In this document: positions 1 to 26,214 of the stretch, in pieces
Numbering within the stretch: the first letter of the stretch is position 1
Layout: each line of letters begins with the position of its first letter
IMG/VR virus record: IMGVR_UViG_3300023179_000409
Coordinates: 1 to 28,179 of that record
Reading direction: 5' to 3' (one strand)
Source of the DNA: a virus
DNA: 28,179 nucleotides
Position numbers and translations under genes: made by a program
Notes under the pieces: generated by a model
Told to the model about the DNA's origin: nothing
The model's database searches: none
What the model saw: only the letters and a program-made list of their open reading frames with translations

Positions 1-1511
1 ATGGTACCAAAACCAAATTTAGATATATCTGCCAATACAAAGTTAGTTGTTGCTAAATTACTTGTAAATGTCAAAGTTGAAGTTTCATTATATTTTAAGA
101 ATAAATCAGTGGCACTTATTGTCATTGATGGATAACGGGTATCTATATCTATGAGAAGATTATTACTTGGACGATTAAAGTTACCGATAATATTAGTAAA
201 TTTGGATGCCGAAACATTAACTGAAATTTGTCCAAGGAAATTAGTTTGAGGCGTTATATTGGCTGTATATATGGTGCTCGAAACTGATGTGAATGCATCT
301 AACGTACCGCCACTGCCTACATTAATATCTACTGCACTAAATGTTGCAGTAGCATTGGAACTAGTGAATGTAAGTTCAGCAACATCACCGGCCTTTAATG
401 CAACGTCACTTGAAACAATTGTGATTTCTGGTCTAACTGAATTTATAGATACTGTTAATACGTTACTTACTTGATTAAAAGTATTTGAAAGGTTTTTTAT
501 AGAATTCCCAGGTACAAAAATACTATATGAGCCCAATTGTTCATTTAGAGGTGTCAACAAAGCTGTTGCTGTAGTTCTCCCGCCATAGAAAAAATTACTA
601 AGCGTCCCTATCCCAGCATACATAACATCGGCAAGTACAAAACTTACCACGGGTTCAGACAAAGTGAAAGTAACTATTCCAGCATGATGTGCTAATAAAG
701 GACTAGCAATATTTAAAGTAATAGATACAGATATTGGTGTTGGTGGTTCTGTGGTTGTTGAAGTTGAAGTGGATGTCGATGTTGTTATAGGTTTAATTCT
801 TTGCGGTGGCAGATCTGGAAACTTACCTGTAGTTTGAATAGGTAAAGATGCTACTTTTTGATAATGGGTAAAATCTGCGTGTTGTGCGGTCCCGGTTATA
901 TTAGCTCTAAAAATAACTTTTTGATACCCAGGAAATGATGGGGCTTTACCTGCATCTAACCATAAATACAAACCATTAGTTACAATTCCCGCTGTAATAG
1001 TAAATAATTCAACTTCTACATGACTAAGATACTGTGCTTCATCACTTTGTGCTTGATCGTGACCTAAGTTATGATCTACAACGAAAAAAGAGGATGAATG
1101 CTCTATAAATCCAGTGTCAAATGCGATATAACCATTTGCAGTATTATTGCTACCCCATGGTGCATAGCTGTAGGTTGCCGGTACAAAATTATAGCTTTCA
1201 AATTTATTAGTACTAAATGTAACTTGACTACCACCAAATAATTGAATTCTAAATTCAGCATGTAGGTTACCGTCTATCCAAATCATATTTTTTTCAGAAT
1301 CTAGGCTATCAACAGCATGCCAATAAACTTTATACCTTATTCTTATGTGAGGAGGTAAATTTGTTAAGGAAAGGGTATAGAGTCCTGGAGTAGGACCATG
1401 GCAAGTAACTGTGCCCAATCCAGAAATATTTGTAAAGGTATAAACATCGGCCCTACTCCATTTAGATAAATCGGTGTCAGCTGACGAACCTTCATTCAAA
1501 ACTATTGACAT
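1..1511 (-). CDS. Partial Ig-repeat tail fibre/adhesin-like protein (C-terminus off the left edge)
   Basis: The reading frame is open from an ATG at 1511 to the window edge, giving 503 codons with no stop. The first ~230 residues look like a beta-sandwich rich in aromatic and polar residues; I do not recognise the family. A Ser/Thr linker (TSTSTSTSTTTEPP, about residues 243-256) follows. After it come about 2.5 tandem bacterial Ig-like repeats of ~100 residues starting near residues 258, 359 and 457. Each has a pattern such as 'ITIVSSDVALKAGDVAELTF' and an 'F...DI' motif, typical of Bap-type adhesin repeats. The start lies 2 bp after the stop of the giant protein, so the two are probably co-transcribed. 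The ribosome-binding site is weak (GGAT). A host-contact fibre or adhesin role is inferred from repeats, linker and position. The missing C-terminus would normally carry any receptor-binding tip. Confidence 0.72.
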   Translation of the reverse strand, partial: MSIVLNEGSSADTDLSKWSRADVYTFTNISGLGTVTCHGPTPGLYTLSLTNLPPHIRIRYKVYWHAVDSLDSEKNMIWIDGNLHAEFRIQLFGGSQVTFSTNKFESYNFVPATYSYAPWGSNNTANGYIAFDTGFIEHSSSFFVVDHNLGHDQAQSDEAQYLSHVEVELFTITAGIVTNGLYLWLDAGKAPSFPGYQKVIFRANITGTAQHADFTHYQKVASLPIQTTGKFPDLPPQRIKPITTSTSTSTSTTTEPPTPISVSITLNIASPLLAHHAGIVTFTLSEPVVSFVLADVMYAGIGTLSNFFYGGRTTATALLTPLNEQLGSYSIFVPGNSIKNLSNTFNQVSNVLTVSINSVRPEITIVSSDVALKAGDVAELTFTSSNATATFSAVDINVGSGGTLDAFTSVSSTIYTANITPQTNFLGQISVNVSASKFTNIIGNFNRPSNNLLIDIDTRYPSMTISATDLFLKYNETSTLTFTSNLATTNFVLADISKFGFGT

Positions 1512-1513
1512 TT

Positions 1514-4500
1514 TTAATCCATTGTATTAGAACTAGCAGAATCGCTATTCACTATAGCTGCACAATTATCGGGCCTAGTGTTTCCACCTGTAGCGTAGAT
1601 AATTTCTGTATCATCAGCCTTACAAAAACTGGTACGCCCGCCACGCCAGGGTGCATCCGAAACACCGTATGGTGGACCACCAGCGCTACCTCTATCTGTT
1701 GGTTGTTGGCCCCCTCGACCACCTGCACCCACTTTAACTTTATATTGTGTACCTGCACCTACTGGATATTTAGTGAGTAATCCAGCACCACCACCACCAC
1801 CTCCGGCATTAACACAAGGGCCGGTAGCACCCCCACCGCCGCCAGCTATTATACCCACTGTTATTTCTGTTACTCCAGTAGGTACAGTAAATGTACCAAT
1901 TAATGCATGTTCATATAAATCAGCACTAGCACGTTTAGCAGTGCTTAGACTGTGATCCCACTCTATAGCGTTGCTTCCAGACACCAAGCGAGAAGCACCA
2001 AATGCAGTCACATCAGCACTTGTGAATTGATAAGTTCCACCTGTAATAGTTATTCGTACCAGACCACCAGTACCATTACCGCCATTAATCGGTGCAGTCG
2101 AGCTGTTAGCTCCATCAGTCTCAACACCACCACCACCGTTACCTATTCCAGAAGCATGAACAGCAGCTGAATTGTATCCGGATAAACCGCCAGTTCCAGC
2201 AACACCAGAAGTTGTATAGCCGCCACCAGAGGCACCAGTACCATGGTCCCCTTCACCACCAACTGGCGAAATCCATGATCCACCTGCACCGCCCAACGGA
2301 CTTGCCGATCCGCCACCGCCGTTACCCATATGACTTAAAGCAGCTGAATAGCCACCTCTATGGCCAACAAACACACCAGGATATGCTAAAGGACCGAATC
2401 CATTACCGCCCCAGGCTGCATTAGAAGCAGGAATGCCCGGAGGTAGTGGTGGGGGTGGTGGGGGTGGTGGTACAGTTGTTGTACTAGAAGTTGAAGTAGA
2501 TGTTGTGGTAGTAGGTGGTGGTGGATATCTATCCTTAGTTGCATAGTATAATTGAGTAACCTCAAGACTAGATAGCTCTCTATTATAAACAAATACTTCG
2601 CTTATATCACCATCAAATTCATAACTATCAGAGGAACCAGGATTAGTTTGGTTAGCAAATGTAATACCAATACCAGCAGTGCCTGACGTAGCTGGCAAGT
2701 GTACCTGAGAAAGAGTTCTCTCCATTCCGTTAATATATAACTTATTGTATCCTACATAAGTGCTTCCACCGATTGTGTTATGAAATACAGCAGAAACAAA
2801 CACCCAAGCACCCTTATATTGTGACATAAACGAGGGGGTAACTCCATAAAGATCACCCGATCCATTGTTAAATCCTAATGCTCCTCCTGGCATCCATAAT
2901 CTATAACCAGTTTGCCATTCCATAGGGAATCCATTAGCATCACCTATGGAACTCCATCTCATCCACATGTTAACGGTATTGTATCCTCCAGGATTTGTAT
3001 TAATACCGGTTACATTAGATATAGAACTGGTACGATCGTTTATATTAGCACCAAAGTTAAACCTGAAATGCCCGCTTTGCTCCGGACGCCATTCAGGACT
3101 GTTATCCAATAAAGCGAAATCATTCTTATTTGTAGTTAAATCAAACCAAGTTTTACCTTTGGTCATATTATTTGTTACTCTAAAGAAAACTTGTTTCTGT
3201 TCTCCAGTTAGTAAGTCAAAAGTAGTGGGGTAAAAAGAAACTGATGATTCATTAGGTTTACTCAATACAGATATGGTAATATTAGTATTTGAAGTTTGAA
3301 GACCTCCAAAAGTTCCTACAGCGAATGAATCACTTGTCTCTGTTTGGGCCTGAGTAAACGGCACATAAATCGAAGATTCTGTATTGCCTATAATACCAAT
3401 CGATAAAGGTGCAGGAGCTATAGTTGTAGTAGTTGTTGATGTTGTCACTGAGCCGGGATCTAATTCTGCTACCCTAATAGAAAGACTATCATATATTGCC
3501 CCAGGTAATAGTTCTTCGGGACTATGAGCAAATAACCTATCAACAAACTTGCCGCCGCCAACTTTAATGTTACCCGCTGTTAATCCCGATGATGAACCAA
3601 AAGTATCACCTACTAAAATTGTATCATTTGTTTGAGAAACGTTACCTACAATTACCGGATTAACCGAACTTATTCCAGGAATAAGTTGATATAGAATTTT
3701 AGGTACAATATTGTCATCTGTCTGTACATAAAATCCCATTGTTCTATCATTGGCATTGTCAAAACTAGACGACATTACTTTTGTAAGATTGTTACTTGAA
3801 AAGATCGACCCGGTTACAAAATTTTCTGTGGTTTTATATGCTTGACCTTGATAACTTAAATAAGCTCCTTTTAAAACAACAGTATTCGGTTGCCACTCAG
3901 ATACTTGTGTTGTATATTGCACACGATCAAACTTTAAAGTGGTATGAATCTTTCTTACGGTTTTGTTACCTAATCTAGCAGTTAATACTGCACTACCTGC
4001 AAACTTAGAACCAGGCAATGATGATGTAAAAATTTTTGTTCCCTGCCATCTTGACCCATTATATACATAGGTTTTGTCTCCGTATGAATATGAAGTTCCA
4101 TTAAATGGATTTGTTGGCAACTGAAATGGAGTACTCAACACATAATGTTTAGGATCAGATCTAAGAGGAAATAAGTAACCATTTTCAATTCTAAATGATA
4201 TCGTACAAAAAGCATCTTGCGAATTATCTGAAGATCCGGCATAATGTTCTATACCACGACCAGTTCCGCAGCCTGGTAATCCAACCAAAATATAACTACT
4301 TCTGTACTTAAAATTACTATTAGCGAGACCAGGTTTTCCAAAAATTTCAACACTGGCTCCACACCTTTGTAGAGCTGCATCTAAATTATTTGTTAGTCTA
4401 TTGATTGAAGGTTCATCGTAAGTATGAACTACAACTACGTGATCATCAGTCGTCATATTTAAGTCTAAAGCTAGATCAGTTGTAGTATATCCTGTATAGC

Positions 4501-7500
4501 CTATAGAATTCTGTGAATAAATGTCGTAATGTCTAGAGAACGAAACGTACCCATCTGATCTTCTAATTCTATGCATGTGGAATCCACGTACCTGTGCTTT
4601 ATATTTTACATCAGAATATGGCCCGTAATCTAATAAATCTTTAATTGACGGTTCGGTTCCGTTTACTTCCTCAAATCTCGGGTAAGCGAACTGCCCTCTT
4701 GTGTAAGGGTCTGCACAATAATAATGATAACAACGTTGCATTGCCTGCGTTGCACCGGGAGGAAACTTACCATCAGCAATATTTCCATTGTTGGCCATCA
4801 CACGACCACTAGTGCGTGTATAAATTCCGCTATCAGGATGAGAACTAGTACCTGTGTGCGTGGAAGGAAAAATATACCCTACATGTAAATACCACACATC
4901 TTTATCATAATTGCCAGCACTTCTATAATTCCAATAAGGATTAGATTCATTTAAACCAGTGGCAATATTAATTACATCGTTGGAGCTACCAATAGTATGT
5001 AACCCATGATAGAATACGCCACCAGCATCATTTGTGGTACGACGCATCCAGACTACGCTTCTATATGTTTTACTTGGATCTATAGAAAAATAATTACCAT
5101 TCCAACCACCATCAGCATTACCGTCGCCGCTTGGCCTAGTTTCCCATACAATATTAAGTTGATTCCAGGGATCAAGGTCTCGTACTCTTTCATTTTCCTT
5201 AGTAAGGCCATTTCGGGGGAATGTTGCAGTTCCGCCCGATCCCAAAGTCCAATCTGCTGTGGATATTTTACTATGACTATAATTCTTTAATAGATTTTGT
5301 CTACTAAAGTCACCATATAACCCAAAGGTTAATTTGTTTATTGTGGCTGTGCGAGAGTAAGAATATCCTTCAGCCACTACTGTAAAATTAAATTTATTAC
5401 TATCATTTGGGCGACGACTTCCAACACCTAAAACTTTTACGATTGGAGTTTGTGTGTAATTTTCTCCGGTTTTATCCATGTAAACTTTGCTGATTCCAAA
5501 GTTAGTAGTATCGATTATGACGGAGGCATTAGCTTCCTCTCCAGAAGAATAATCAGTTCGTAATATTTCAATATTGGGAATTATGACATTGCCATTTTGA
5601 AAATTTTGGTAACCGTAACCTGGTCTTGATACGACTAATTGGTCAATAGAATACTTATAGTTGCTGAGCCAATTTATATATTCGGGTCTTTGTAGAATTA
5701 CTGCATCTATTTCTGGGCGGCTACCGTCGGGACTTCTGTATACCTCTAAATCGCGATCATAATAAGGCTGTATGTCAAAATCAGTTATATTACCAACATA
5801 AGAATCTATTTTTTCATATGCTGATATAAATTCTCTAATTTTTGTCCTATATGGTTTTATCTCATTAACATAATTTTCTATGTTAGTTTGATAATTGCTT
5901 ATTGTACTAGCTAACTCTGTGAAATTTTTAGTTATGTGTTTAATAGAGATAAAACTTGTCTTAAAGAACCAATCAATATATTTTTGCTCACCTAAAATAT
6001 AATTTATAAGATTAAATAATAATTTTGTATATTCAATTTTAAGATCATCTATAAATACTTCTTCTTTTAACCCTTGGAACACATAACGAAGTTCAATATC
6101 TTTTCGATTGTCATAAACATTTACATCAAAATCAAAACTATCAAATCCTTCTAATTGAGCCACTGAATCAGATATTTGTATAGATTTATTTGCGAGTCCG
6201 ATTAGTCTCGGCTGGAACTTGCCATTTGCCATGCTATCAAATTGGTATAGTTCCCAATCACCTAGAGACTCTTCGTAATCATTAACAATATTACCATACC
6301 TTATAGTGGTATTAGAATTATTATTAACCTTAACAATTAATCCATCAGTCAAATCTAATTTATAAACATCTTTAAATTCGTTAACTATATTATCGGGTCG
6401 TGTTTGGCTGGTATAACCGGGAGCGTACCAATCTATATAATACCATATGTTTTGAACATTAAAACTTTGTTTTTTAATTAAACTTAAAACAGTGTTTTCG
6501 GCTGTAGGAAATACTCCCACAGTACCTTTTCTTTGATATAAACCCCAACCATTTAAAGTTTCATCATTTTTTACTAAGATTTTTAACGTTTCTAAAGTCT
6601 GTGCCGGATTATAAATTTGACTCTTTGTTTCTACAATTACGTTATAGCTTGTACTACTAGGCTCAGGGTCACTGGCAAAAAAATTGTCAGAAAAAATTGT
6701 AGATTTATTTCTTAGTTTAGAAACAACTGGATATTGAATTAAAATATCATTTATATACTTTATAAGATTTTTTCTAGCATTTTGCTTATCTATTATTAAA
6801 GTTTGGTTTGGTGCCACACCTAAACCAATTTTTTTCTGAGCAGAGAGAAATGGATCTGGAACTAAACTACCATTTACATCTAATCCAATTACGCTATCAA
6901 TTAACTTATTTTCTAAAGCTATTGGGAAGGCAAAATTGGGATTACCATCTTGTAACAATGTAAAATCACTGTGAATAATTTGATCGGTTACTAATTTTTT
7001 ACTTGACAGATATAAAGTCGTCTCATCTTGAAACAAAAATGGTCCTGCATTATATAAAGCTATGGCGTCATCACGTAAAGCAGCCATGAAAGGTATGCCT
7101 TGGGATATTGGATCTAAAATAATAGATTCAATCGAAATAGTCGTTTTCTTTTTATTAGCAGCAGATTTGTTAGTTTTTCCTCTAACCCAGAAATAATATT
7201 TGGTTTTAAAACTACCAGTTTCTTTGTCAACATAAACCGAATCAGAATAATATTCGTCATTTGCATACAAAGGAGTACCTTCTAATCCATTTGTAACATA
7301 GACAGAAGGAAGATAATCACTATCTATCCATTCGTACACTTCAACAGTGCTACCTGGAAACAATTTACCCCAGTTTTCTACTCTAGAACGTAATTCACCT
7401 TGTTCGTAGTCCACAAATCTACAGTTAGAAGTATTCCACCAATAGGTCCCGACTTGGTCTTGACCCCAGAAAATTTCTTCGCTGAAATAATAATTACTAC

Positions 7501-10500
7501 TTGTATCATTTCTTCTGTAAGCAGCGGGATCACGACTAGCTATTATATCAATTTCTTCTCTAGCTGTACTAAGGATTCTGCCCTTATTTGGATCATATAG
7601 ATCCACTCTAGTTAGTATTTGTTTATTTTTATTATTATATAGATAGATATTGTTGATACTTTCAATATCAACAATTTTGTTAAATTGTCTTACTACCTCA
7701 AATTTATAGACATATATTTCTTTTACCGAAGTTACAGTTTGAGTTCTAATTAATTCACCGCCTATACTTACATCCCTAGCAATATCTTCATCAGTAGCAT
7801 CTTCAATGGTATAATACAATTCTTCAGATTCATCAGCTGAAAAAACACAAAAATTAATAGCGTCACTATAATCAACTGACTGAACAATTGAATTAGCTAT
7901 CTCACAATTAATTCCAACGATATTATATATGTTTGTTATGTCAGTACTACTGTCAACAGAAATTTTAGATTCTACATCAGAAAAAATTGCTTTATATACT
8001 GCCCAAGAGTAAGGGTAGGTAACTTCATTAACATAAATTAAATCAGATTCAAGAAATCCATATTTAGGTACGTGAGAGTAAAGCTCGGTTAAGTTTGAAT
8101 ATCTTAATTTTTCAAAATCTATCAATTCTGCTTGGCGATTATCGACTGCAAAATTGTTTTCTATCCCAGATTTAATTACACAAATCTCTGTTTCGGTTAC
8201 AGTAAAAATTGGATAGAAACCATCAACCATTGTGTCTACACCACGAACTGCTATCATGTCTCCTATTTGACATTCATGTGCAGAGTCGCAAACTAATATT
8301 AATTTATTATCAAGATCAGATCTTGCAGCTATGATCTTAACTGGTGATATGTAGGCCCTATAAACCTGCCAGTTATTGTTAAAATCTTTAGCCACCCATA
8401 TTTTGTACCCGTTATATAAGTTTAATAACAAAGTACTGTCAAAAGTTGCATAATTTCTTATATCAAAAACTTGACTATTAATTTCATCAATATTAACGAA
8501 TCCGGCACTTTGAATGTCATCCTCATAGAGTTTATATTTTCCACGAATTTGGTCTTCAATTATACTCTTAACAAGTGGTGATAGAATTTGGTCATTTATT
8601 AATCTATACCCTTCTTGGTTAGGATGAATGCCATCTAACGAAAGATAATTTTTTAATTCTGTTAAGTTATAGACATCAGCTAAGTAATCTCCGTATTCAT
8701 TAGAAACTTCCCTCATTGCTTTAGCATACAATGATAAATCATTAGTTCCAATTGGAGCAAATTGCGTATATTGACTTTCAACATCTATTTTAACTGGCGT
8801 TTGCCAAATTACAATTTTATCCTTTGGTAATCTTTCCCTTAAAGCAATTAAATTAGATTTGTAGATAGATATAGGTACACCATATCTAGCGTCGTTCAAA
8901 CCATGGTTTATTACTACTATATGAGATTCTATGTTATCAGGCCAAACTCCATTAACACCATCATTGCCTGTTAATAAATCCTGACTTTTAGAATTTTCAA
9001 CAGACCGTGTTGTTACAGCTACATCAAAAACATTTTCTAAACTTTTGAATAGTAAGAAATCGGGTGGTTCATCTACACGACCTGTTACTTTATCTTTAAG
9101 ACAAACTAGATCCGAATTAATATCTCCGATACCTTCTGTTGCAGTGTCTTGAATTTCATTAATAGCTACTTCTTCTATAGACCAATAGACATCCTCAGTA
9201 TCAAAAATTGATGTTATATTTAAAAAAACATCATCGCCCATTTTAGTTTCATCTACATAATAATATGTACCGTCTTGGGTTCTCGCACGAGGTCTATCCG
9301 GATATAATGCAGGCTCAATACTAATATGTACTTTTTGAAATGCGTTTTTAGTTGTAAACTCAATACTCAAATCCGATGGAGAAAGCAAACTTACAATAGA
9401 AGGTTGAAGAGCATCGTCGTATGTAGTGGTGGAAAGTTGAATTTCATCCGCGGTTGGGGTTTCTAGCGTTACAAATAATTTTTCATTTGGCGTCATAGAA
9501 GTGAAATTTAATAAAAAAGGTTCACCTGCACGAACATAATCTTGATATCGTTGGTTGTGAACTCCGGTAATATGAATTGAATATGATGATTTTTGCGTTA
9601 GATCAATCGAATAACCATGTCTTTTAGCAATACGCACGCTATATCGATCCGCTTCAACTTTTTTGCCACAAATAACACTATCACCAAACAACTCAACTTT
9701 CCATAATTGTGGTTCAATAACATTTCTATTTCTAAAAATATTTGGCGAGTATTCAGAAGGATATAAGAGAAAATCTCTAAATTTTACAGGAACAATTAAT
9801 TTGTTTTCAACCTCTTGGTTCGAATCAAGCATCTGATACGCAATTGGGTTATCTGTATACAAACTATTTTTAATAGGAAAACTATATTCTGGATTATTAT
9901 CTATCGCCCCGTAAACACCAAGTCTTGCTCCCCATTCCTCGTAAAGTTCTATTGTATTTTCTACATTGGAAAATATGCCTCTTTCAAATGCACGAATGGC
10001 ATTTGCAGTACCTTTTTCTTTAATAAATCCTTGATAAAATTTTATTTGTGAAACAGGATCTAACCCCAGATTGTTCAGATAGTCTCTTGTTCTATACCCA
10101 ATTAAACTGTTACTGTATATTGTTAAATTTTCGTCATAAGGCAATAGGTCAACGTCATATATATCTGAGAACTTTACAGCATTCTGACTTAAATTCGGAA
10201 GTAGACCTTCCCTAAAACTGGAATCTAATCTTATCCAATAATTAAAATTAAAAGAATCTGATCCTTCAATATCTTTTAGGGCACTGTAATACAAAGATTT
10301 ATATTGAACAATTTCGCCTTTCTTGTAATCATAACTTGACTGCCATTCATCTACTTTGCCATCAGAATATACGAACCCCGGAGGTGTTAATTCACCATCC
10401 CATGAATTTGTTACTGACCCTACTATTTTTAGTCTAGTTTGTCTATCACCAACTTCGGGTTTATACAAAATATCGTTAAAGATACTAATATTATCTAGCA

Positions 10501-13500
10501 ATAGTACATGTTCGTATTGAATTAGGTTAAGTCTCAATAAAGCTATGGTTTGCCCACTTACTGTAGTTATAGTTGTACGTTTACTATCGCGTAATATGCT
10601 GAAATCATTATTTCGAATAATATTATAATTTGTACCTAAAATTTGCGACCCATAAACATAATTGTCTATTTGGTCAACAACATAATTTTCAGAATATACA
10701 TGTATAGTATCAATTATAGGACTTAAGACAAGAATGTTTCCAGAATCCCACCCTTGTTTAGCCCATGTAATGAATTCTTGTACGCTTAAACTAAAATTCC
10801 TAACAGATTGTAATTCGGTGTCATAGGTGTCAAAAATAATACCTTGTGCCGACAGGTACCTTTGATAACTGATTAAAAAATCAGCTACCTGTTGCAAAGA
10901 CACAAATTCAAAACCATAAGGAATTTTAAGTTTTTGTGGTAAAAATTTATCAAACAATACTATAGTTTCATCTAGAACATTAATAGAATAACTTGTACCA
11001 TTTACTTGGCTAGGAATTATTGTAAAATAAGGAAACTTTTGATCATAACCATTTACACTGAATCCCCTAGAAGTTCTTTCAATTACAACAGCACTATAAG
11101 AAATTGTCTCAACAGGTAAACTTTTGTGCAAATATATATTATAACTTTCTTCGGGTATAATCAAACTTTGACTTTTACTTGTAAGACTGATTTGATTGGC
11201 TAAAACATTAATATAATTTTTATTAGTGAATCCGGCAAATTTATATGCTAAATTTAAATTAGAATTATCAATAACATTTCTTAAAGTTGTAGAAGCATCT
11301 ATACCAAGTCCCACTAGATACCCGTGAATCCAATTTATGTAACTTGATGCCCTTTGAACCTTATTGCCAATAGTTTCACCATTTACTATTATATTTTTGA
11401 AACTTAACCTTAGATTTGTATCTTTAACAGAGTATTGTCTTGTCTGTGCATCAAATCTATAATTAAATGTGTCTAATAACAGACCAAAATATTGTGCCGG
11501 TTTTAATAATGCAAAGGCTTTTTGTTCTGCAAATACATATTCACTGCTTCTAGCCCATGCCGATTCAACAGGGCCATAGTCACCAACTGTAAAATTCCCG
11601 GACAACCTTTCGCTATCGAAGCCTGATATTAAGATTTGCTGCGGTGACAGTAAAGTACCTGTTTTATCAACAGGAATGACCTTTTCAAATCCAGGTCTAG
11701 CGTAAGAAGAATTAGTTGCTGTAAGATATGTACTAGCAGAGGGAATCTGTGTACGTCCATTTACAATAGCTGATATAAGGTTTGATCTTTTGGCACTTTC
11801 TTGCCAACTATAGTAGTTATCCCACCAGTTGGGTTTGATTGAATACCCTAACATCTCCCATGGATGAGTGTGTGGACGATCCGTGTCAAAAAAGTATTTG
11901 TAAATACCACGCCAGTACCCGGGAACACGTTGATTATCTAAATCTCGTGCTTCTCTGTAATTCCAAGACCATTCGTCATTGGCACTGAAAAAACTATTAG
12001 TTGTATAGTCTAAACTATTCTCACCTACCCATTTTAAAAATTCTAAACTTAAAACAGATGTGAATTCAGCTCTAGAATAACTAGTGGTCCTATACTTGCC
12101 AGGTATTACTCTACGTCTATTAAATAAACTTTCAGTAAATCTTACTTTAATATTATTAAAAATTCTAGTTTCTAATTCTAAAATAAGATAATCTCTTATG
12201 TCATTAAAAGCCGGTAATAAGCTACCATCATGCCCTTGAATTACGTAAAAAGGTTTGGAATATGTTTCATCTAAAAATTTTTCAGGTACATAACTAGGAT
12301 ACATACCTAACTTGCTAGGTGTTTCCGGAATATAATTTCCATCTGTGTTAGTATATTCCTTAATTGTGAGAACATCACCTTCTTTTAGATTAACTGTGTT
12401 TGATAAATTTAATAAATTGTTAGTTATTGTAAAATCTATATTGCGTTTTAGAATTTTATTATTAATATATACTAAAATTGCAATATTACTAGGTTCATCT
12501 TTAAATGTTAAATTCAAATTATAGATTAATTGAATATTGCTTGTTACCCTTCTATTTGTAATAGTAACGCCGCGACGACCGAACGGAACCATATCCGAAT
12601 AATAGAAAGGAAAATTTTCATTTTTAACTTCGGAAAATTTTTCTAGAATTTCATCTAAAATAGCAGGTACTTCGTTTATATTTCTATCCAAATAATTGTT
12701 TATTGCATCTAGAAATCTATTTTTAAATCTTGTATATTCTTTAGCAGCATAATCAATGGCATGAACATAGTTTGTTTGTTTATTGGTTAAAAATGCTATA
12801 GCCGGTGCGAGACTAGCACTATGTTGTAAAATAGTTCCAGGAATACCTTTATAACTAATGTCTCGTAAGTTATTTGATTGAAAAATGTTTCCAATAAGAA
12901 ATCTGCTATTCTCACCAATTTTCTTAAGATTGTTTCGCAATTGTCCAAAAGTAATACTACTGATTAATTCGTTAAAGGGATTATTTTCTAAATTACCTGG
13001 GATTTCGTAATATCCAAACGAAGAAGGCTGAGGTGCATATAAAAAAATGTCAATAATATCATCTTTGACAAGAAGTCTATAATCAATAACTACTGCTGTC
13101 CTCTCACCAACCAATTCTACTCTATATTCTGGGTTTACTGAATTGGTTAATTGTAAAAATTCACCGTTTAAAAATATTTTTAAATTCGATGTTATTCCTA
13201 AGGGTGCAGTAGGAATTTTTCCTATTTCAAAATAATTAGTGATAGCATCATATTTGCTTCTTATATGTTGATATTGTTTAGATTCATTATCAACCGCAGT
13301 AAAATTATTAGTAAGTAAAAAGGAATAACGACCAGTAATTTTTCTAAGATAACCAATGTTAATTGATTTTTCTACTCTGTTTGTAAGTGCTTGATTAAGC
13401 CGGTATGCGAAGGTGTCATTATCAAAGTTATTTTCAAACTCAATATCACCAGAAAGGTTTAAATTGTTAGAGTAGGTTAGAGAAAAAGGCAATACATCAT

Positions 13501-15893: not shown

Positions 15894-18800
15894 TCAAGTT
15901 GTAATTGGTTGTAGTTCTAAAGTTGTTATCGAACTTACTATTTCCACATCATCAACTGTGGCAGCACTAATTAATAACTCATATGGCTCACTATTGATTT
16001 GGTACAAATTGCCAAAAGTCATATTAAGATTCTTACTAGTAATAATAATTGCAGCTATGTTAGGACTTAACGTTTTATGAAGGTAAGCTGCTAATTCGCT
16101 AAAATAGAAGACTTCGCCAAAATCCCAATTTTCGGTTGAAAAGAATTCGTTCACAGCCGCGATGACTGATGATTTTATTTCAGCGTCGGTTACCGAAATG
16201 TTTGGATTTTTGACTACCTTAAAAACAGATTGGAGTTTTACATCTGCCTTTGATCCAAATAAAGGTTTATAAACTGCACTTTGTATGACAATTGTATCGC
16301 TAATAGCTTTTAAATTTTCTAATTCAGTATACTTGTTTTGAAGTTCTAAGTCGGTCGGAGCGTCGGGTTCGCTAAGTTTACCTGATGTGTCCTCCAACCA
16401 TAATCTATAATTTGTTTCATATTCTGCGGTTAAAACATATATGTCGATAATGTTTCCAATATTAGGATCAATCCTATTTGAGTTTGGAGAATTATGTCTA
16501 TATTGATATCTAATTTCTTGTCTACCAACAAAACATTTATAGTTAGGAACAATAACAGAAGATGTACTGTTAAGTCCAACACTTAACTCTTTTAGTCCGT
16601 AAGCATCTAATTGGCAACGATAGAATTGTTTTTCTCCTCTAGCAAAAAACAATTGGCCAACGAGGTAATTTTTAATTTCAGCTAGTATATCTGCTTTTGT
16701 TAGATAATTATCGATTACCTTATTATTGTCTAATAGTTCATAACTTGTAAAATTTGAATTATTCTTTACTAATTGGAAATATACTAGATTTTTATTTGTA
16801 AATTTACCATTTCTAAACATTAGTGCTTCTGATAAATTATAAGTCAAGGATTGAATGTCGGTCAAAGTAAGGGAATTGTCTAATAATTTACCTACATAAT
16901 TATCTAATTCAATTTGTGTTGGAAATCTTCCTACATTTTTCTTGAAAATATAATTTACTCTAGTTGCATTCTTCTTAGCATTTAAAGAAGCAAAACTTGT
17001 TATATACGGGGCTCCAGATACAATTTGTTCAAAGATATTATTAACGTCAGGGACACCATCTTGATTGGTGTCTGCATAGGTTAGATTAATACTTTTGTTT
17101 TCGATAAATCCATCACTACGTTTAATTTCACTTTCAATGAACCAGGTTAAATTTTCATTTAAACCTTTGTTAGAATCTAAAACAATTATTTTGTCATTAA
17201 TTACTTCGTTATTCACAGGATCATAAATTTGCAAATCAGAGTCAAAAAAGAAATTAGTTTCTTTCGGACTATGAAATACATACTGTAAATTCTTATAAGA
17301 AACTACATATTTTTTATGAGTTGAATTAAACTCAAATTTGATCCACCAAGCATTAGGATCAGAAAGCAATGTAGCATCAACCATAACCCAATTACTAGAA
17401 GCAGTTGTATATACAAGTCCGAAATTTTCATTAACTAGAATTTTACTGACCATTGCGTCGACAATAACAGTACGTAATGAATTTTTAAACGTTGGTATAA
17501 TGGATTCAACTACAGCACCAGTGGGAATAGCTAAATTTATTTTAACAGGTCCGGTACCATTGGAAAAATTTCCAGTCCCGTTATTACTACCATCACCGTA
17601 AACCTGAGTAATTGCTGCAAATTTAGCCAATGTATCTCCGGTCTTTTGCAAAGGTCCTTTTAACATATTCAAGTTTGAATTGAAATGATAGTTGTAATCT
17701 GGCACAAATTTAACTAATGCACCTGTAGATAGGAATCTTTTATCATTTTGTATTGTTGGCCCAACAGGAATTACTTGTCCGTTATAAGTAAAATACCCTG
17801 TGGATACACCTGTTTCTGTTGAACTTAAATGCCATTTATAATTAGTTGAACAAGTTCCTGTACCAAATTCCTCAACTATTATTTCACCAAGCAAATGATT
17901 AGTTCCCCAACCGGGCGGTCTGTCGTAAAAAAACCCACCACCATCACCGGCAACGAAATTTTTTGTTTTGGCTAAATGTCTGTTCGCTAAAGGACCAGAT
18001 ACAACTGCATCAGCAGCGGCAAAAAATATGTCGTAAAAGTTTTCAGAATCTACGTTAATTTTTGTTACTAAAGTTGAGTTTACCCAAAAAGATAAACCGC
18101 CTACATCTGGCGTACGGTATAAACCATATCTATATTCATCATTACTTAATTTATATTCATTGTTACCTAGATAAAATTTAAGAATTTTTAAAGTTTGCTT
18201 TTTATATTCCTGTGTTGTATATGAACCTTTATTTGCAGCAACAAAATCATCTATGTTATACGCCTTAGTGGTATAGTTACGAGATACATAATAATAAACG
18301 CCGGGAACAACATTAGTAGTATCCCATGTTATCGTACCGGTACTACCTCCATTATTTTCAACAGTACCTACAGTAACATTTCCTAACACACCACCTGTTT
18401 GAAAAGATTTTATATGAACAGGTTGATTTGATAAATTTACTAGAGATAATTGTTCACCAACTTTTATTCTTATAGTTGTATTTGGTAACGAGCCTTTTTC
18501 AGTAACTTGATCTACCGTACCTATCCCTGTGTTGATCGCAGTAGATAGAGGAGTAACTGCATTTACTGTCACTGTATATGTTCTTTTACTACCGTCCTCA
18601 ATTATATAACCGGAAGCCATAAATTCAACTTCAAAGGTATAAATGCCAGTTTTGGAAAATTGAATTACACCTATCTGTTTGATTCCATTAGAATCAATTA
18701 TATCTAAATCAGAAATAAAAGGATTTGGAGACCAAGGAGCAGTTTCAATACCAGTGTAAGTTTTTTTTACTCTAAACAATGCCCCGGGAGGTGCATTATA

Positions 18801-20693
18801 GATAGTAATATATGAAGTTGATCCTAATTCGACAGTCATCGAAGTGCTAACACCAACTGAGCCATTAGTTGGGCCTATGGTAGGATTATAACTTGTTAAA
18901 ATAGAGTTAATATAAAAGTTATCAGTTTTATTTGCCCGTAGTGCATAATTTAAAGTTCTTTTACCATTTTCGTCTGATCTAAAAACCGTCCCTATAGTGT
19001 TATCGGTTGCACCATACCTCATAAAGTTTGTTGTTCCAACCGATATTATTTCATACACTTCACCCTTTATTATATTTTCTTCATATACTAAACTATCTTC
19101 TAAAATATGCGGTAATACAGTATCATGAAAAAAGTGCATGACATTTTTATTGTCAATGACTTCGGGAATAAGAACATTTCTAATAAATTTTAAAGATTCT
19201 AATCTATTAAGAGCGGTAAATTCTAAGGTATCAATTTTAGATTCAGAATAGAGTACTCCATCATTACCAAAAATATTTGTGCTTGAGTATTTGCCTGTTA
19301 CATCTAATGTATCTAAGTATCTGCTTAATCCTGAACTAATTCTATTAATTGCTTTGACTTTTTTAATATCAGAAAACGTTGTATAGGGAAGGATATTATA
19401 ATCCTCCCCGGTAATCATACGATTTTGAGTATAATATTGCTGTGGAGCACGCTGTTTAATTTCGTCGGCCGACTCTCTTGCTTTGGCATTTGCCACTGTG
19501 TATCGTAGACTAGCACGAAAAGTTACAGTTTCGACTCTATTATTTCTACTAATATAGTCAAAACTAATTTGAACACCTCGTATCTCGTCTGGCGTAATTT
19601 TATAAGTATTACCGTTACTTACTCTATAATATAATCTAAATTTACCTTGAGGAATATTTGCAAATGAACCATCACCAAAAACTAAACTTATTTGATCGTT
19701 ACTTCTGCTGTTGACCTGATATATATTTTTACTTTTGCTAGTGTTGTAAATTACATTGGTACTAACCACTTGTTCCCAGAGAGTATCAACAAAACCCGAA
19801 GAATCTAAACTGTATAACCATATGTCTTGGTTATTAATATTGTCTATATCAATATTGACTATTTTGTTCGGCAAACCTGTATCAATGGTAAAATCTAAAT
19901 TGCTTAACTCACCTTGTTTGAAATATAAAAAGAATCCAGTATTGTTACTGTCATTACCATTACTGTCATTTCTATATAAAAGATTATAGATTTGGTTGAT
20001 GTCCGGTGGTTTCTCGTAGATATAACTTTTACCAGTGCTTGTTGCACTTACAACTTCAAAACTTGTTGTTAAACCGTTTACACTAGATTCAAAACGATAA
20101 ATTGGTAATATGTTGTTAATAAGATTAATACCATACTCTTCGGTTCTTATATTATTAATGGTATTTCTATTAGATGGCCTCCCAAATGTTTGATATGTAA
20201 CTAGACTGGCATTGATAACACTCACAAACTGCTCAAACCAATTGGAATTTCCAAGGTCGTTCCATATAACAATTCTATTACTTAAATCTAGACCATCACT
20301 ATCGAAAATAGTTTCTGTGGTGCTTACACTATCAATTTTAAGGTAACCTGATGCACATATATTTCTTTTTGGGTTGTAACTTATCAGTCGTGCTAATTTT
20401 AAGATACTATCTCTACGCTCGGCTGTATCAATAAAGTTTTCTCTTGCATTCAAATCAGTTCTAAATGCTAAACTCTGCCCTAAATAAGCAATTAGATCAA
20501 TTAATGCAATAAACTCAGAACTTTCAGTGAAATCGTTGAACTCTTCAGCATAATTGATTTTGATATAGTCAATCATAGTTTTTCTTAGACTTTCAAAGTC
20601 ATAAGAAGTAAAATCTGCGTCCCTAAAAGTTTGATAAACTTTAGTCCAGTTTTCAGCTAACAATGATCCAGTTTGGCGACTTGTAATTGGCAT
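15894..20693 (-). CDS. 6: Baseplate wedge protein gp6-like, strongly enlarged
   Basis: The product of 1599 residues begins MPITSRQTGSLLAENWTKVY. Its N-terminal ~130 residues (FTESSEFIALIDLIAYLGQS, then RTDLNARENFIDTAERRDS) are the hallmark of T4-type gp6, the dimerising wedge protein that forms the inner baseplate ring. The C-terminal part (NWDFGEVFYFSELAAYLHKT) also fits gp6. T4 gp6 has 660 residues, so about 900 are extra. The inserted middle has an Ig-like region (~608-709), a cupredoxin-like region (~737-800), and two DUF4214-like motifs: LYRTPDVGGLSFWVNS near 853-870 and IFKKNVGRFPTQIELDNYVG near 1244-1265. It lies 28 bp after gp25 and ends 10 bp before the giant gene. A late-promoter-like octamer lies 20 bp upstream of the start. 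There is no Shine-Dalgarno sequence. The gp6 call is firm; the insertion calls are motif-level. Confidence 0.9.
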   Translation of the reverse strand: MPITSRQTGSLLAENWTKVYQTFRDADFTSYDFESLRKTMIDYIKINYAEEFNDFTESSEFIALIDLIAYLGQSLAFRTDLNARENFIDTAERRDSILKLARLISYNPKRNICASGYLKIDSVSTTETIFDSDGLDLSNRIVIWNDLGNSNWFEQFVSVINASLVTYQTFGRPSNRNTINNIRTEEYGINLINNILPIYRFESSVNGLTTSFEVVSATSTGKSYIYEKPPDINQIYNLLYRNDSNGNDSNNTGFFLYFKQGELSNLDFTIDTGLPNKIVNIDIDNINNQDIWLYSLDSSGFVDTLWEQVVSTNVIYNTSKSKNIYQVNSRSNDQISLVFGDGSFANIPQGKFRLYYRVSNGNTYKITPDEIRGVQISFDYISRNNRVETVTFRASLRYTVANAKARESADEIKQRAPQQYYTQNRMITGEDYNILPYTTFSDIKKVKAINRISSGLSRYLDTLDVTGKYSSTNIFGNDGVLYSESKIDTLEFTALNRLESLKFIRNVLIPEVIDNKNVMHFFHDTVLPHILEDSLVYEENIIKGEVYEIISVGTTNFMRYGATDNTIGTVFRSDENGKRTLNYALRANKTDNFYINSILTSYNPTIGPTNGSVGVSTSMTVELGSTSYITIYNAPPGALFRVKKTYTGIETAPWSPNPFISDLDIIDSNGIKQIGVIQFSKTGIYTFEVEFMASGYIIEDGSKRTYTVTVNAVTPLSTAINTGIGTVDQVTEKGSLPNTTIRIKVGEQLSLVNLSNQPVHIKSFQTGGVLGNVTVGTVENNGGSTGTITWDTTNVVPGVYYYVSRNYTTKAYNIDDFVAANKGSYTTQEYKKQTLKILKFYLGNNEYKLSNDEYRYGLYRTPDVGGLSFWVNSTLVTKINVDSENFYDIFFAAADAVVSGPLANRHLAKTKNFVAGDGGGFFYDRPPGWGTNHLLGEIIVEEFGTGTCSTNYKWHLSSTETGVSTGYFTYNGQVIPVGPTIQNDKRFLSTGALVKFVPDYNYHFNSNLNMLKGPLQKTGDTLAKFAAITQVYGDGSNNGTGNFSNGTGPVKINLAIPTGAVVESIIPTFKNSLRTVIVDAMVSKILVNENFGLVYTTASSNWVMVDATLLSDPNAWWIKFEFNSTHKKYVVSYKNLQYVFHSPKETNFFFDSDLQIYDPVNNEVINDKIIVLDSNKGLNENLTWFIESEIKRSDGFIENKSINLTYADTNQDGVPDVNNIFEQIVSGAPYITSFASLNAKKNATRVNYIFKKNVGRFPTQIELDNYVGKLLDNSLTLTDIQSLTYNLSEALMFRNGKFTNKNLVYFQLVKNNSNFTSYELLDNNKVIDNYLTKADILAEIKNYLVGQLFFARGEKQFYRCQLDAYGLKELSVGLNSTSSVIVPNYKCFVGRQEIRYQYRHNSPNSNRIDPNIGNIIDIYVLTAEYETNYRLWLEDTSGKLSEPDAPTDLELQNKYTELENLKAISDTIVIQSAVYKPLFGSKADVKLQSVFKVVKNPNISVTDAEIKSSVIAAVNEFFSTENWDFGEVFYFSELAAYLHKTLSPNIAAIIITSKNLNMTFGNLYQINSEPYELLISAATVDDVEIVSSITTLELQPITT

Positions 20694-20721: not shown

Positions 20722-21114
20722 TTACGTAACCATGGTAGTTGTACCTGAGCTGCGTTTCGCAGCATCTCGGTCAAACCTCATAGATAAACTTGTTACTTGA
20801 TTCGTTGGAATATAAACAACTTCTATTTCGACTACAATACCTTGCCCAAAATCACTAACATTTACATTTTTTGCAGCTAGTCTAGGATCATAACCTATAA
20901 TAGTTTTAATATCAGCGGCGATGGCGTCTTTGACATTTAAAGTAAAAGGTTCAAACAAAAGATCCCAAATTATAGTGCCAAAACTGGGATTCATTAATTT
21001 TTCACCTTTTCTTATATGAAAATGGTTGAAGAGATCCTGTCTAGCTAACTCAAAGTCTGTTAGTTTATATTTTTTAATTCTATTAAAAGTACTGTGACCA
21101 AGATATGTAGGCAT
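20722..21114 (-). CDS. 25: Baseplate wedge protein gp25-like
   Basis: The product of 130 residues matches the GPW/gp25 family in length and layout. gp25 links wedge gp6 and gp53 and helps nucleate sheath assembly; related proteins are TssE of type VI secretion and W of phage P2. The core motif is visible as FGTIIWDLLFEPFTLNVKDA at about residues 45-64, with EPF where many members have EPR. A beta-strand pair (IVVEIEVVYIPTNQ, ~93-106) follows as in the family. It begins 10 bp after the gp5 stop and precedes gp6, as in other T4-like marine phages. No Shine-Dalgarno sequence precedes the ATG; translation may depend on reinitiation after gp5 or on a very short leader. Confidence 0.92.
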   Translation of the reverse strand: MPTYLGHSTFNRIKKYKLTDFELARQDLFNHFHIRKGEKLMNPSFGTIIWDLLFEPFTLNVKDAIAADIKTIIGYDPRLAAKNVNVSDFGQGIVVEIEVVYIPTNQVTSLSMRFDRDAAKRSSGTTTMVT

Positions 21115-21121
21115 AATTTAG

Positions 21122-21129
21122 TATTTATA
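21122..21129 (-). promoter_or_regulatory. Candidate late promoter TATAAATA overlapping the gp5 stop
   Basis: This is an exact match to the T4 late-promoter octamer. It contains the TAA stop of the gp5-like gene, and its 3' end is 8 nt from the gp25 ATG. Transcription from it would give an almost leaderless mRNA, so it may be a promoter or a coincidence created by codons ATA-TAA. Confidence 0.4.
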
Positions 21130-23314: not shown

Positions 23315-25912
23315 TTATACTGATCCTGGATAAAGACTAGCATCAACGGCAAATTCTTCTGGCCATGATTGTATATCAGCGTTAGCCAATTCAAAATCAG
23401 TTTGCGGATTAAATTCTTCTGTTGACGATGTTGCGTCAGGATTACCACCAATCAATTCACCACCTTCACCATATTCGTTTTCATAAAATCCAGAATCAAC
23501 TCTGTTCTCTCTATCTTCAATTCCTAGTGAAGGATTTGATATTGACCTATTTGGGTTGTTTTCCTCTCTAGATACCTTCTTATTTTGTGTGTCAGCCGGT
23601 TGGTCAAATAAACGTACACATTTTAATTTTTGTTTAAAAACACCATTATTAAAAGAATTATCTACTTTAATGATTGAATATATACCCGAAAATGCACTAT
23701 TTTTATTTTCAAATTCGTATAACCCAGTTGACAGATTGATGTCTCTTGGTATTTTAAAATTAAGTTGCATGAACAATTGTTTCTTATCCATTAATAAACT
23801 TGTGGTACTTCTAGCCGAGCTAGGTGGAATCCAAACATCATCTTGTTTTATTAAGTCGGGATCACCGGCAATTTCTAAATCAATGCTTACCATATCAGCA
23901 CCAGATTTGTTGAAAACTGTGTTAAATAGATCTACTGCTTGTACAGACTTTTTACTTCCATCATTAAGTTGGTTATGCGAGCGATTTGTTGGTGTAGTTT
24001 CTATTCGAAGAGTTTGTAAACCACCGCTGCCTGACGAAGATTGATTACTGCCCACAGAAGCAGCACGAACTTGGTTAGGATCAATTCCTTCAGCAAAGGC
24101 ATATTCATTTGAAGTATCAAGATTATCTTTCGCGGTTTTTGACTCGAATGCAGTTAAAGATTGAAAAAATAATGTATTAAATTCAATCTTTAAATCAAAA
24201 ATTTCTTGATTCTTACCCATAAAAATATAATTATATTCTTTATCCATTACTGTGGGAATTGATTTTTTAGCATTGGGAAATTGCTGATTATGATATTTAA
24301 ACTTTGTTATGTTAAAAGTAATTTTCTTTTTATATAACTTACGCTTATTATCCCACTGATCTAAATACTCTACTGTAGTAATAATTTTATGTAGATTGAG
24401 AGGTTGGCTTTTGACATTTGCTTCATTTTGAGATTCCATTTCATTCGAAGGGGGTATTATCTGAGATCTATAGTAATCACTACTACGAATTATATTGTTA
24501 ACAACTTCTATTAAATTAGAACCTGCATTAATTGGTATGATTCCAGAAGCTTGATCTAGAGAATCTTTTGGTGTTTTATCGTTTTGAGCCGGAGCTTGTG
24601 TTAGATTATGAAAGTCTTTAACAAAAATAGTTGCTCTTTCTATATCCGGATCTATGACAAACACATATTCGTCAGCAACGCCTTGATATCCTTTTTTAAC
24701 AAGTTCTTTTTGATATTCATTAAGAGCATCTACTAAACTTAAAGTGCCATAGGATTTTGGTTTGGGACTGGCATTGATTCCTAATCTTCTTGTTTCGGCT
24801 TCAGTTTGAGATTCGTCCCTTGTAGGGTTGTTTACTGCGTCAGGTTTGGTACCATATGGCGGTAAGTCATATTGAAGATCAGATGCCCCAGTAGATTTAA
24901 AAAATTCTTGTACATTCTTTGCTGTGACTTCAAAATTTACCGGAACTGTAACGCTTTTATTTTGCAACGCAGCATGACTTTGCGGAATAGCTCTTATTTT
25001 ATACTCAGCCCCTTTTTGAGTTATAGCTAATTTAATATCTATAATTTTAATGCAAAGATGTTTTGTGACATCTGGTATAGGGCTAGCAGCATAACTACCA
25101 TCAGGGTTTATGGCAAAGAAATCTATTTGTAATACCAAAGGCATTTGATCCCACATTTTGATACCAGCCTGATTAGCAACGGTAACCAAATTTTCAAGAA
25201 AACTAGCTCCTAAAGGCTCATGTACAGTAAACTCCATATCGATGGCATTAGTACCTTTGTTGCTAGAGTTTAAACCAATTATTGTAGACATTTTAAAATC
25301 TGTTATATACATATCTAATTCAAAATTTGGATTTCGACTGAAATCGGGTGATCGTCTACCGCCACTAGCAATCAAGACTTGCCCCTTACTTGGAGTCCAT
25401 GGTGCTCCTCTTACTACCACTGAATTATACTCTTTAATAGTCATATAGGCTAAACTTAACCCATAGGTATAGGTGGTATATATATTTAAAGGATTTTTTC
25501 TAGGTTTTTTAGGAGAGTTGTCAACTCCGCCTGAGCTCAATGATATATTTTCGCCGCCCCCGCCATATTCATCTTCCGCGAAGGCAGGATCCATTTCTCC
25601 GCCATATGCATCACCACTCTCACCGTATTCATCTTCTGTAAAACTCCTATCGTTTAGTCCATCATCGGGGGGTGAAGCAAAATCTATTCCTGCTACTGTG
25701 GCATCTCCGGGACCACCATCAGCGAAGTCAAAACCTGCTGTAGATTCATCTCCACTTATAGAACTTTCCGGTAGTTCTAAATTAAATTGTTCTTGAGAAT
25801 TTATGGGCTCAACTTGGTTTAACTGCGGTTGTGTTGGAGATATAGCCGACTCGGCTGTATCATTAGTAGCTCTAATAGAATCTAGAAATTTGCTAAAGGT
25901 AAATGCTACCAT
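23315..25912 (-). CDS. Probable baseplate hub structural protein (gp27 position)
   Basis: The product has 865 residues. Residues 1-140 are acidic and Gly/Ser-rich, with EDEYGESG at 93 and EDEYGGGG at 113. A globular core (~145-780) carries YGLSLAYMTIKEYNSVVVRG near the start, MVSIDLEIAGDPDLIKQDD later, and FSGIYSIIKVDNSFNNGVFK near its end. The last ~65 residues are acidic again with ENEYGEGG at 811. The core resembles large structural proteins that sit just before gp5 in T4-like cyanophages, remembered and not searched. T4 gp27, the gp5-binding hub ring, is 391 residues. Position next to gp5 suggests a gp27-like hub, but I cannot show homology. Its ATG overlaps the gp53 stop by one base (TAATG) and has a good AGGTGG ribosome-binding site, which implies coupled translation. 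Confidence 0.62.
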   Translation of the reverse strand: MVAFTFSKFLDSIRATNDTAESAISPTQPQLNQVEPINSQEQFNLELPESSISGDESTAGFDFADGGPGDATVAGIDFASPPDDGLNDRSFTEDEYGESGDAYGGEMDPAFAEDEYGGGGENISLSSGGVDNSPKKPRKNPLNIYTTYTYGLSLAYMTIKEYNSVVVRGAPWTPSKGQVLIASGGRRSPDFSRNPNFELDMYITDFKMSTIIGLNSSNKGTNAIDMEFTVHEPLGASFLENLVTVANQAGIKMWDQMPLVLQIDFFAINPDGSYAASPIPDVTKHLCIKIIDIKLAITQKGAEYKIRAIPQSHAALQNKSVTVPVNFEVTAKNVQEFFKSTGASDLQYDLPPYGTKPDAVNNPTRDESQTEAETRRLGINASPKPKSYGTLSLVDALNEYQKELVKKGYQGVADEYVFVIDPDIERATIFVKDFHNLTQAPAQNDKTPKDSLDQASGIIPINAGSNLIEVVNNIIRSSDYYRSQIIPPSNEMESQNEANVKSQPLNLHKIITTVEYLDQWDNKRKLYKKKITFNITKFKYHNQQFPNAKKSIPTVMDKEYNYIFMGKNQEIFDLKIEFNTLFFQSLTAFESKTAKDNLDTSNEYAFAEGIDPNQVRAASVGSNQSSSGSGGLQTLRIETTPTNRSHNQLNDGSKKSVQAVDLFNTVFNKSGADMVSIDLEIAGDPDLIKQDDVWIPPSSARSTTSLLMDKKQLFMQLNFKIPRDINLSTGLYEFENKNSAFSGIYSIIKVDNSFNNGVFKQKLKCVRLFDQPADTQNKKVSREENNPNRSISNPSLGIEDRENRVDSGFYENEYGEGGELIGGNPDATSSTEEFNPQTDFELANADIQSWPEEFAVDASLYPGSV

Positions 25913-26214
25913 TATCCACCTAATGCAGACATTAAGGTATTAGCATCGGGAATGAATATTTTTTGTCCTAAATAAAAATCAAAAATAGGATCACGTATAG
26001 TATTTGGATTCCTTGCAGCAAATACCCACCAAAGTTGAGGATTATTATAGACATCGTTGGCTAACAAGTCAGGACGATATTCATAAACTCGATTGATTTT
26101 AAATAATACATCCTGACTACTACGTGGTATAGATCTATAATTTAAAATGTCGAGAAAACGCCCAAATCTCTCTGTGGTAAAATATGGACTGTACTTGGTA
26201 TATTCTGCTGCCAT
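25912..26214 (-). CDS. 53: Baseplate wedge protein gp53-like
   Basis: The 100-residue product matches the C-terminal/LysM-like half of T4-type gp53, the wedge clamp that binds gp6 and gp25. Visible features are KYSPYFTTERFGRFLDILNY near the N-terminus, YEYRPDLLANDVYNNPQLWW in the middle, and LGQKIFIP near the C-terminus, the last being LysM-like. T4 gp53 has 196 residues, so this is a short form as in marine relatives. Start and stop overlap both neighbours by one base (TAATG), so it is tightly coupled to gp48 and the hub gene. Confidence 0.83.
   Translation of the reverse strand: MAAEYTKYSPYFTTERFGRFLDILNYRSIPRSSQDVLFKINRVYEYRPDLLANDVYNNPQLWWVFAARNPNTIRDPIFDFYLGQKIFIPDANTLMSALGG

Follow-up and report, generated by a model that had tools for sequence, protein, structure and literature searches.

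An SGNH/GDSL esterase-fold cassette in a giant gp7-position virion protein of jumbo phages, with recurrent loss of catalytic residues

SGNH domains found in phage tails are generally regarded as active deacetylases. The tail-fibre domains of G7C gp63.1 and Possum gp66 are O-polysaccharide deacetylases (PMC9569702), and in Klebsiella prophages SGNH is a major and frequent receptor-binding domain that hydrolyses pNPA (PMC13123978). The copy described here lies in a viral DNA stretch of 28,179 nucleotides (IMG/VR record IMGVR_UViG_3300023179_000409, hereafter the window) and has in common with these fibres a virion SGNH domain, the residues of blocks I, III and V, and a likely glycan target. It differs from the tail-fibre deacetylases by its location in a giant protein at the gp7 position (P0001), by a series of putatively Ig-like repeats after block I, by the absence of the block II Gly, and by the fact that most of its close homologues are catalytically broken. 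The Tal protein (gp59) of 80alpha and phi11 also carries an SGNH domain in a baseplate protein, with activity unproven as in P0001; in these siphophages the domain is C-terminal to a gp27-like hub domain, whereas in P0001 it is inserted in a giant wedge-position protein (PMC7048315). Further domains placed inside the SGNH sequence, as in P0001, are found in NmApe1 (a CBM) and in the hemagglutinin-esterases (a receptor domain; PMC9487903), but the P0001 insert consists of tandem, putatively binding, Ig-like repeats between a Cys pair, and no sequence relation to either was seen. Thus the SGNH fold, its occurrence in phage tails and the insertion of material into it are already known; in the open-access literature we found no description of the giant-protein context, of a slot shared with FG-GAP repeats, of repeats beside the active site or of recurrent catalytic loss, and nothing relevant on catalytically dead SGNH domains in phages.

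P0001 (residues counted from the ATG at window 15881-15883, minus strand) matches phrog_10938 ('virion structural protein', 1.6e-295), with core similarity across most of its length, and has homologues in the jumbo phages PA5oct, Atu_ph07, Phosso, SCTP-2, 121Q and Vibrio phage 2.275.O, of which the PA5oct protein is annotated as a virion protein from mass spectrometry. It follows, in this order, the homologue of gp53, two gp5-region proteins, and the homologues of gp25 and gp6 (Table 1), and thereby occupies the position of T4 gp7. The giant proteins of PA5oct, 121Q, Atu_ph07 and SCTP-2 have the same core and the same position after a gp6 homologue, but are devoid of the SGNH domain and have their slot filled with other material. 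With the baseplate wedge protein gp7 of T4, P0001 has the gene position after gp6 in common, without detectable sequence similarity: a profile of 67 family members showed none to T4 gp7 or gp8 (hhalign probability at most 1%), and homology to these proteins was rejected. The PDB yielded no fold match for the AlphaFold2 (AF2) model of the downstream core and no sequence match for the upstream core. Given the lack of gp7/gp8 similarity and of a PDB fold for the downstream core, we deduce the baseplate location from gene order. The original prediction of a baseplate component therefore holds as far as the gp7 position after gp25 and gp6 is concerned, and finds no counterpart in similarity to T4 gp7/gp8.

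Several features of the surrounding genes deserve mention. Between gp25 and gp53 (window 21125-25912), P0003 matches baseplate hub/lysozyme PHROGs; Pfam, run to E = 1, retrieved no lysozyme domain from P0003 or P0004 but only weak matches of OB and Gp5_C-like type, and the phage may lack a gp5-type lysozyme at this locus. DUF4214-like motifs in the gp6-like protein were dismissed, as Pfam gave them no support. The C-terminal part of P0001 (aa 3766-4789, window 1514-4600) comprises ILEI-like, LamG-like and glycine-rich domains separated by Thr/Ser- and Pro-rich linkers, and the higher GC content at window 2001-3000 (0.45 vs ~0.33 elsewhere in the gene) suggests its recent acquisition. The next gene (P0006, window 3-1511, cut by the window end) encodes three Big_12 Ig-like domains (E 2.1e-30) joined by Thr/Ser linkers of the same type.

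Reading of the sequence had placed the motifs GDS (Ser2069), GLND (Asn2330) and DGIH (Asp2417/His2420) in the order of an SGNH hydrolase inside a protein of 4789 residues; both order and numbering proved exact, and each motif occurs only once across the 4789 aa. Pfam recognised the region as Lipase_GDSL_2 (PF13472, E = 1.4e-11, 45.7 bits with the cut-off at 32.9) and Lipase_GDSL (PF00657, E = 8.5e-7, above the curated cut-off), with the match beginning only at aa 2285, since an insert of ~185 residues (2076-2261) separates block I from the rest. This insert and the absence of the block II Gly had both escaped the original reading. Based on 11 aligned homologues, the AF2 model (aa 2045-2467) is confident for the alpha/beta core (aa 2267-2449, pLDDT mostly ~80-97), fair for the block I strand (pLDDT ~75) and unreliable for the insert (largely < 50). 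Its topology is that of a canonical SGNH domain, with Ser2069 right after beta 1 (block I pLDDT being only ~75), Asn2330 opening the helix after its strand, and Asp2417/His2420 in the loop ahead of the last helix. With an E-value limit of 0.001, Foldseek retrieved 105 PDB chains. SGNH esterases headed the list (probability 1.00), with target-normalised TM values of 0.69-0.72 for 1yzf, 9otv and 4rsh, and the matches included a single phage tail fibre (SFP21A gp09, 9lna). The flavodoxin-like SGNH fold that had been anticipated is hence borne out by the modelled core and by Foldseek, a chance match of the three motifs is rejected by Pfam, AF2 and Foldseek, and P0001 holds a true SGNH/GDSL domain.

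Table 1. Features of the window discussed in the text (window coordinates; aa numbering of P0001).
Feature	Position	Strand	Basis or remark
Giant virion-type protein P0001	1514..15883	-	4789 aa ORF; gp7 position in T4-like baseplate gene order
Conserved core downstream of slot (aa 2745-3410)	5654..7651	-	AF2 mean pLDDT 74.8
Repeat unit 4, outside SGNH domain (~aa 2675-2711)	7751..7861	-	Repeat HMM
SGNH cassette (~aa 2053-2452), between '...FxNR' and '...EDDxxxAGYVNxDE'	8528..9727	-	Presence/absence, Pfam, AF2, Foldseek
Block V DGIH (aa 2417-2420), Asp2417 and His2420	8624..8635	-	Motif location
Block III HGLND, oxyanion Asn2330	8891..8905	-	GLND = aa 2328-2331; Asn2330 codon 8894-8896
Block II position, Glu2296-Asn2297, canonical Gly absent	8993..8998	-	Alignments
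Insert in SGNH fold (aa 2076-2261), three repeat units, ends at Cys2261	9101..9658	-	Alignment; repeat HMM cross-matches
Cys2261	9101..9103	-	Conservation
Repeat unit 3 (aa 2214-2258)	9110..9244	-	Repeat HMM
Repeat unit 2 (aa 2164-2213)	9245..9394	-	Repeat HMM
Repeat unit 1 (aa 2118-2163)	9395..9532	-	Repeat HMM
Cys2072, three residues past nucleophile, proposed disulfide partner of Cys2261	9668..9670	-	Conservation
Block I FGDS, nucleophile Ser2069	9677..9688	-	Ser2069 codon 9677-9679; GDS = aa 2067-2069
Conserved core upstream of variable slot (aa 1184-2022)	9818..12334	-	26-66% identity to all homologues
gp6-like baseplate wedge protein	15894..20693	-	phrog_10646 1.2e-284
gp25 baseplate wedge protein	20722..21114	-	Pfam GPW_gp25 6.3e-8
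gp53 baseplate wedge protein	25912..26214	-	Pfam Phage_gp53 1.6e-4; phrog_7145 4.4e-25

The Foldseek matches with the best E-values were Ape1 peptidoglycan O-acetylesterases (8gkd, 8gld) and, as NmApe1 has a CBM inserted in its SGNH domain (PMC9487903), it may be asked whether the domain is a peptidoglycan O-acetylesterase serving cell-wall penetration rather than a surface-glycan module. We regard this as very improbable: the Ape1 matches have low TM (~0.37) and high rmsd (a consequence of the poorly modelled insert), other SGNH enzymes fit the core better (~0.7), and a gp7-position protein is not expected in the periplasm.

The insert holds three of the four repeat units detected in P0001. 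The units are related, as HMMs built from single units matched the others with E-values of 8e-3 to 7e-8, against none below 1 for shuffled sequences. Their Ig-like nature is a guess from the sequence pattern, made without a database match and kept as such because the insert is poorly modelled (pLDDT < 50). The ~185 aa of the window insert compare with 13-18 aa at the same site in the compact domains (L105, L108, L110, L117 and L119-L123); among the giant proteins L105/L108, L110 and L117 are without the insert, which is shorter in L103 and L106. In L117, in which the site after block I is empty, similar-looking Ig-like material occurs at ~aa 2249-2337, directly before DGIH, and, going by this protein, the repeats seem mobile within the SGNH fold. 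Cys2072 and Cys2261 flank the insert and are the only Cys of the window domain; both are present in 26 of the 27 members compared, L096 having neither. The simplest reading is a disulfide that would close the neck of the insert.

A scan of IMG/VR with part of the upstream core (aa 1184-1700) gave at least 597 relatives, 80 of them retrieved. Across the aligned relatives the SGNH domain is a single clean block of ~400 aa, and in three members devoid of it (L024, L025, L030) the flank '...FxNR' joins directly to '...TAGYVNxxDV...'. In the upstream-core tree a single branch separates all 22 SGNH carriers from the other members (SH-aLRT 99, one change) and one acquisition therefore suffices. The cassette is present in one jumbo-phage clade of the giant-protein family and absent elsewhere in it, and is best read as a single gain by the ancestor of that clade. 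An FG-GAP repeat region was found in the variable slot of 42 of 49 non-SGNH members vs none of the 20 SGNH members scanned; as this region lies downstream of the SGNH insertion point, the pattern is one of exclusion within one slot and not of replacement at the same residues. In a collection of 84,980 species genomes, 32 stretches fitted the SGNH patterns and none was confirmed as a relative.

The slot has further contents. That of a near SGNH-less relative (L024:2618-4333) has a YHYH domain (E 7.6e-31) and no FG-GAP repeats, and L009 and L103 have an extra segment of ~300 aa after the SGNH domain. A Pfam scan gave one weak DUF4214 match (0.0065) in one member, and a DUF4214-like motif was seen by eye in this part of L009.

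The closest homologues outside the giant proteins were found on five distinct contigs (L119-L123), near the N-terminus of tail proteins of 1254-1769 aa that resemble phage tail-fibre SGNH deacetylases. Their loci are not homologous to the giant, and their domains are compact, with 13-14 residues at the site of the window's ~185-aa insert. A 2030-2243 aa ORF ahead of the SGNH gene in L013/L121 raised the possibility of a split giant gene, which was rejected since a profile search found no homology; these are therefore different myophage tail loci. The tail protein looked at most closely, L013 (the same protein as L123), also has an ILEI-like domain, a second domain type in common with the giant. 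This is indicative of module exchange; mosaicism is a known property of phage tail proteins (PMC10684548).

The giant and tail-protein copies differ sharply in their catalytic residues (22 and 5 copies compared, respectively; the patterns used may miss more divergent giants). Ser, Asn, Asp and His are all kept in the five tail-protein copies vs 3 of the 22 giant ones (the window, L095 (= L015) and L099 (= L011)), so that 19 giants are without at least one of the four (Fisher test, p = 7e-4, ignoring the kinship of the rows). Block I Ser is present in 11 of the 22 giants (Gly or Asn in the other 11), block III Asn in 9, and block V His in 15-16. Because the rows are related, more weight is given to the trees: the domain tree (built without the catalytic columns) splits tail proteins from giants at 100/100 and implies a minimum of six changes at Ser, six at Asn and three at His (five, five and two on the core tree). 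A search artefact is an unlikely cause of the frequency of loss, since Gly was permitted in place of Ser in the patterns and the search also employed another, independent motif. At the Ser, Asn, Asp and His positions L105/L108 have Gly, Ile, Asn and Tyr, and L115/L118 have Gly, Tyr, Asp and Phe; with these substitutions neither pair can use the SGNH mechanism. Five relatives (L101, L102, L104, L109 and L113 (= L020)) keep Ser, Asp and His and have Arg in place of the block III Asn (GMRD/GLRD). In PatB1 a block II Arg acts in the oxyanion hole (PMC9487903) and, by analogy, the Arg of these five may be an oxyanion donor, making them catalytic variants rather than dead copies.

The fold, on the other hand, is maintained, as identity to the window in the SGNH core (41-68%) follows that in the downstream core (39-67%), including in serine-less members (40.9 vs 41.0 in L021). 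L096 drifts faster (55% vs 67%). Near the active site, DGxNxxWPD, NHGxxDA, TTRSV and an invariant block I Asp are conserved even in most of the broken members. Such persistence of the fold while catalysis decays could reflect a structural role rather than binding, and a fold plus Ig-like repeats acting as a pure spacer or brace, which lengthens or stiffens an arm without touching glycan, would also agree with the filling of the slot in other phages by equally large FG-GAP repeat regions. We nevertheless hold it unlikely, considering that the conservation around the active site goes beyond the needs of a spacer and that Ser/Asn/Asp/His are intact in three members.

The window copy has Ser2069, Asn2330, Asp2417 and His2420 but no block II Gly (Glu2296-Asn2297), whereas most members have at least one Gly there and the outside relatives have Gly-Asn, Gly-His or Gly-Phe. 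Block II gives a backbone amide to the oxyanion hole; SpOatA functions with Ser at this block and a two-component hole, and in OatA activity is abolished on replacing the block III Asn (PMC9487903). With the four residues kept, the block II Gly absent and the tolerance of SpOatA for Ser in its place, the window copy may still be active, with chances that we judge about evenly balanced. A stronger claim would be that it is an active O-acyl (probably O-acetyl) esterase acting on host surface polysaccharide at attachment, the broken relatives being irrelevant. The canonical topological positions of the four residues in the model, the dispensability of the block II Gly in SpOatA, the deacetylase function of the G7C and Possum fibres and the cleavage of pNPA by the Klebsiella prophage fibres all argue for it. 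Yet we find it rather doubtful. In the set, both candidate block II positions are non-Gly elsewhere only in L105/L108, where none of Ser, Asn, Asp and His is left; the clade as a whole does not conserve the catalytic residues; and L096, which groups with the window and L095 and is one of the window's two nearest relatives, has Gly for Ser. The de-esterification at attachment that had originally been predicted keeps its footing in the SGNH fold, the well-placed Ser/Asn/Asp/His and the giant virion-type protein after gp25/gp6, and it may still occur in this phage, the window being one of the three intact copies. Catalysis is less likely to be the role under selection, considering that 19 of 22 giants are broken and 11 of 22 have no Ser while the fold is kept.

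We reason that the domain probably serves mainly to grip surface sugars, here perhaps still trimming them, because most relatives broke the catalytic site and kept the fold. Thus, a captured tail-protein esterase re-used as a host-glycan-engaging module, with catalysis dispensable and repeatedly discarded, is the explanation that we consider somewhat probable. By this explanation, a single event in the ancestor of one clade would have brought an SGNH esterase-fold cassette, from the esterase domains of other phages' tail proteins (its nearest relatives), into the variable slot of the giant gp7-position protein. A short array of putatively Ig-like repeats sits between two conserved Cys, beside the catalytic Ser, and pocket and repeats together would retain a polysaccharide, probably an O-acylated one, during settling of the baseplate. 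Hydrolysis would be optional: the window copy might remove acyl groups with a reduced oxyanion hole, and most relatives have kept the fold and lost one or more catalytic residues. The glycan binding, the help of the repeats, the exposure of the slot on the baseplate and the substrate are all parts that we infer. A more ambitious version, which we put forward tentatively and at a little under an even chance, sees in the gp7-position protein of jumbo phages a swappable host-recognition slot, in which a captured esterase, braced by a disulfide and Ig-like repeats, stands in place of an FG-GAP propeller and has several times been turned into a dead glycan-binding pseudo-esterase.

Within one protein context and on a conserved fold, the family offers a natural series of active sites that range from intact through partly to fully broken, with which the parts of binding and catalysis in phage adsorption can be told apart. 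It also serves as a warning that a profile match alone is insufficient to annotate phage 'SGNH hydrolases' as enzymes, and suggests that the exchange of host-facing modules may extend beyond fibres to a giant core virion protein.
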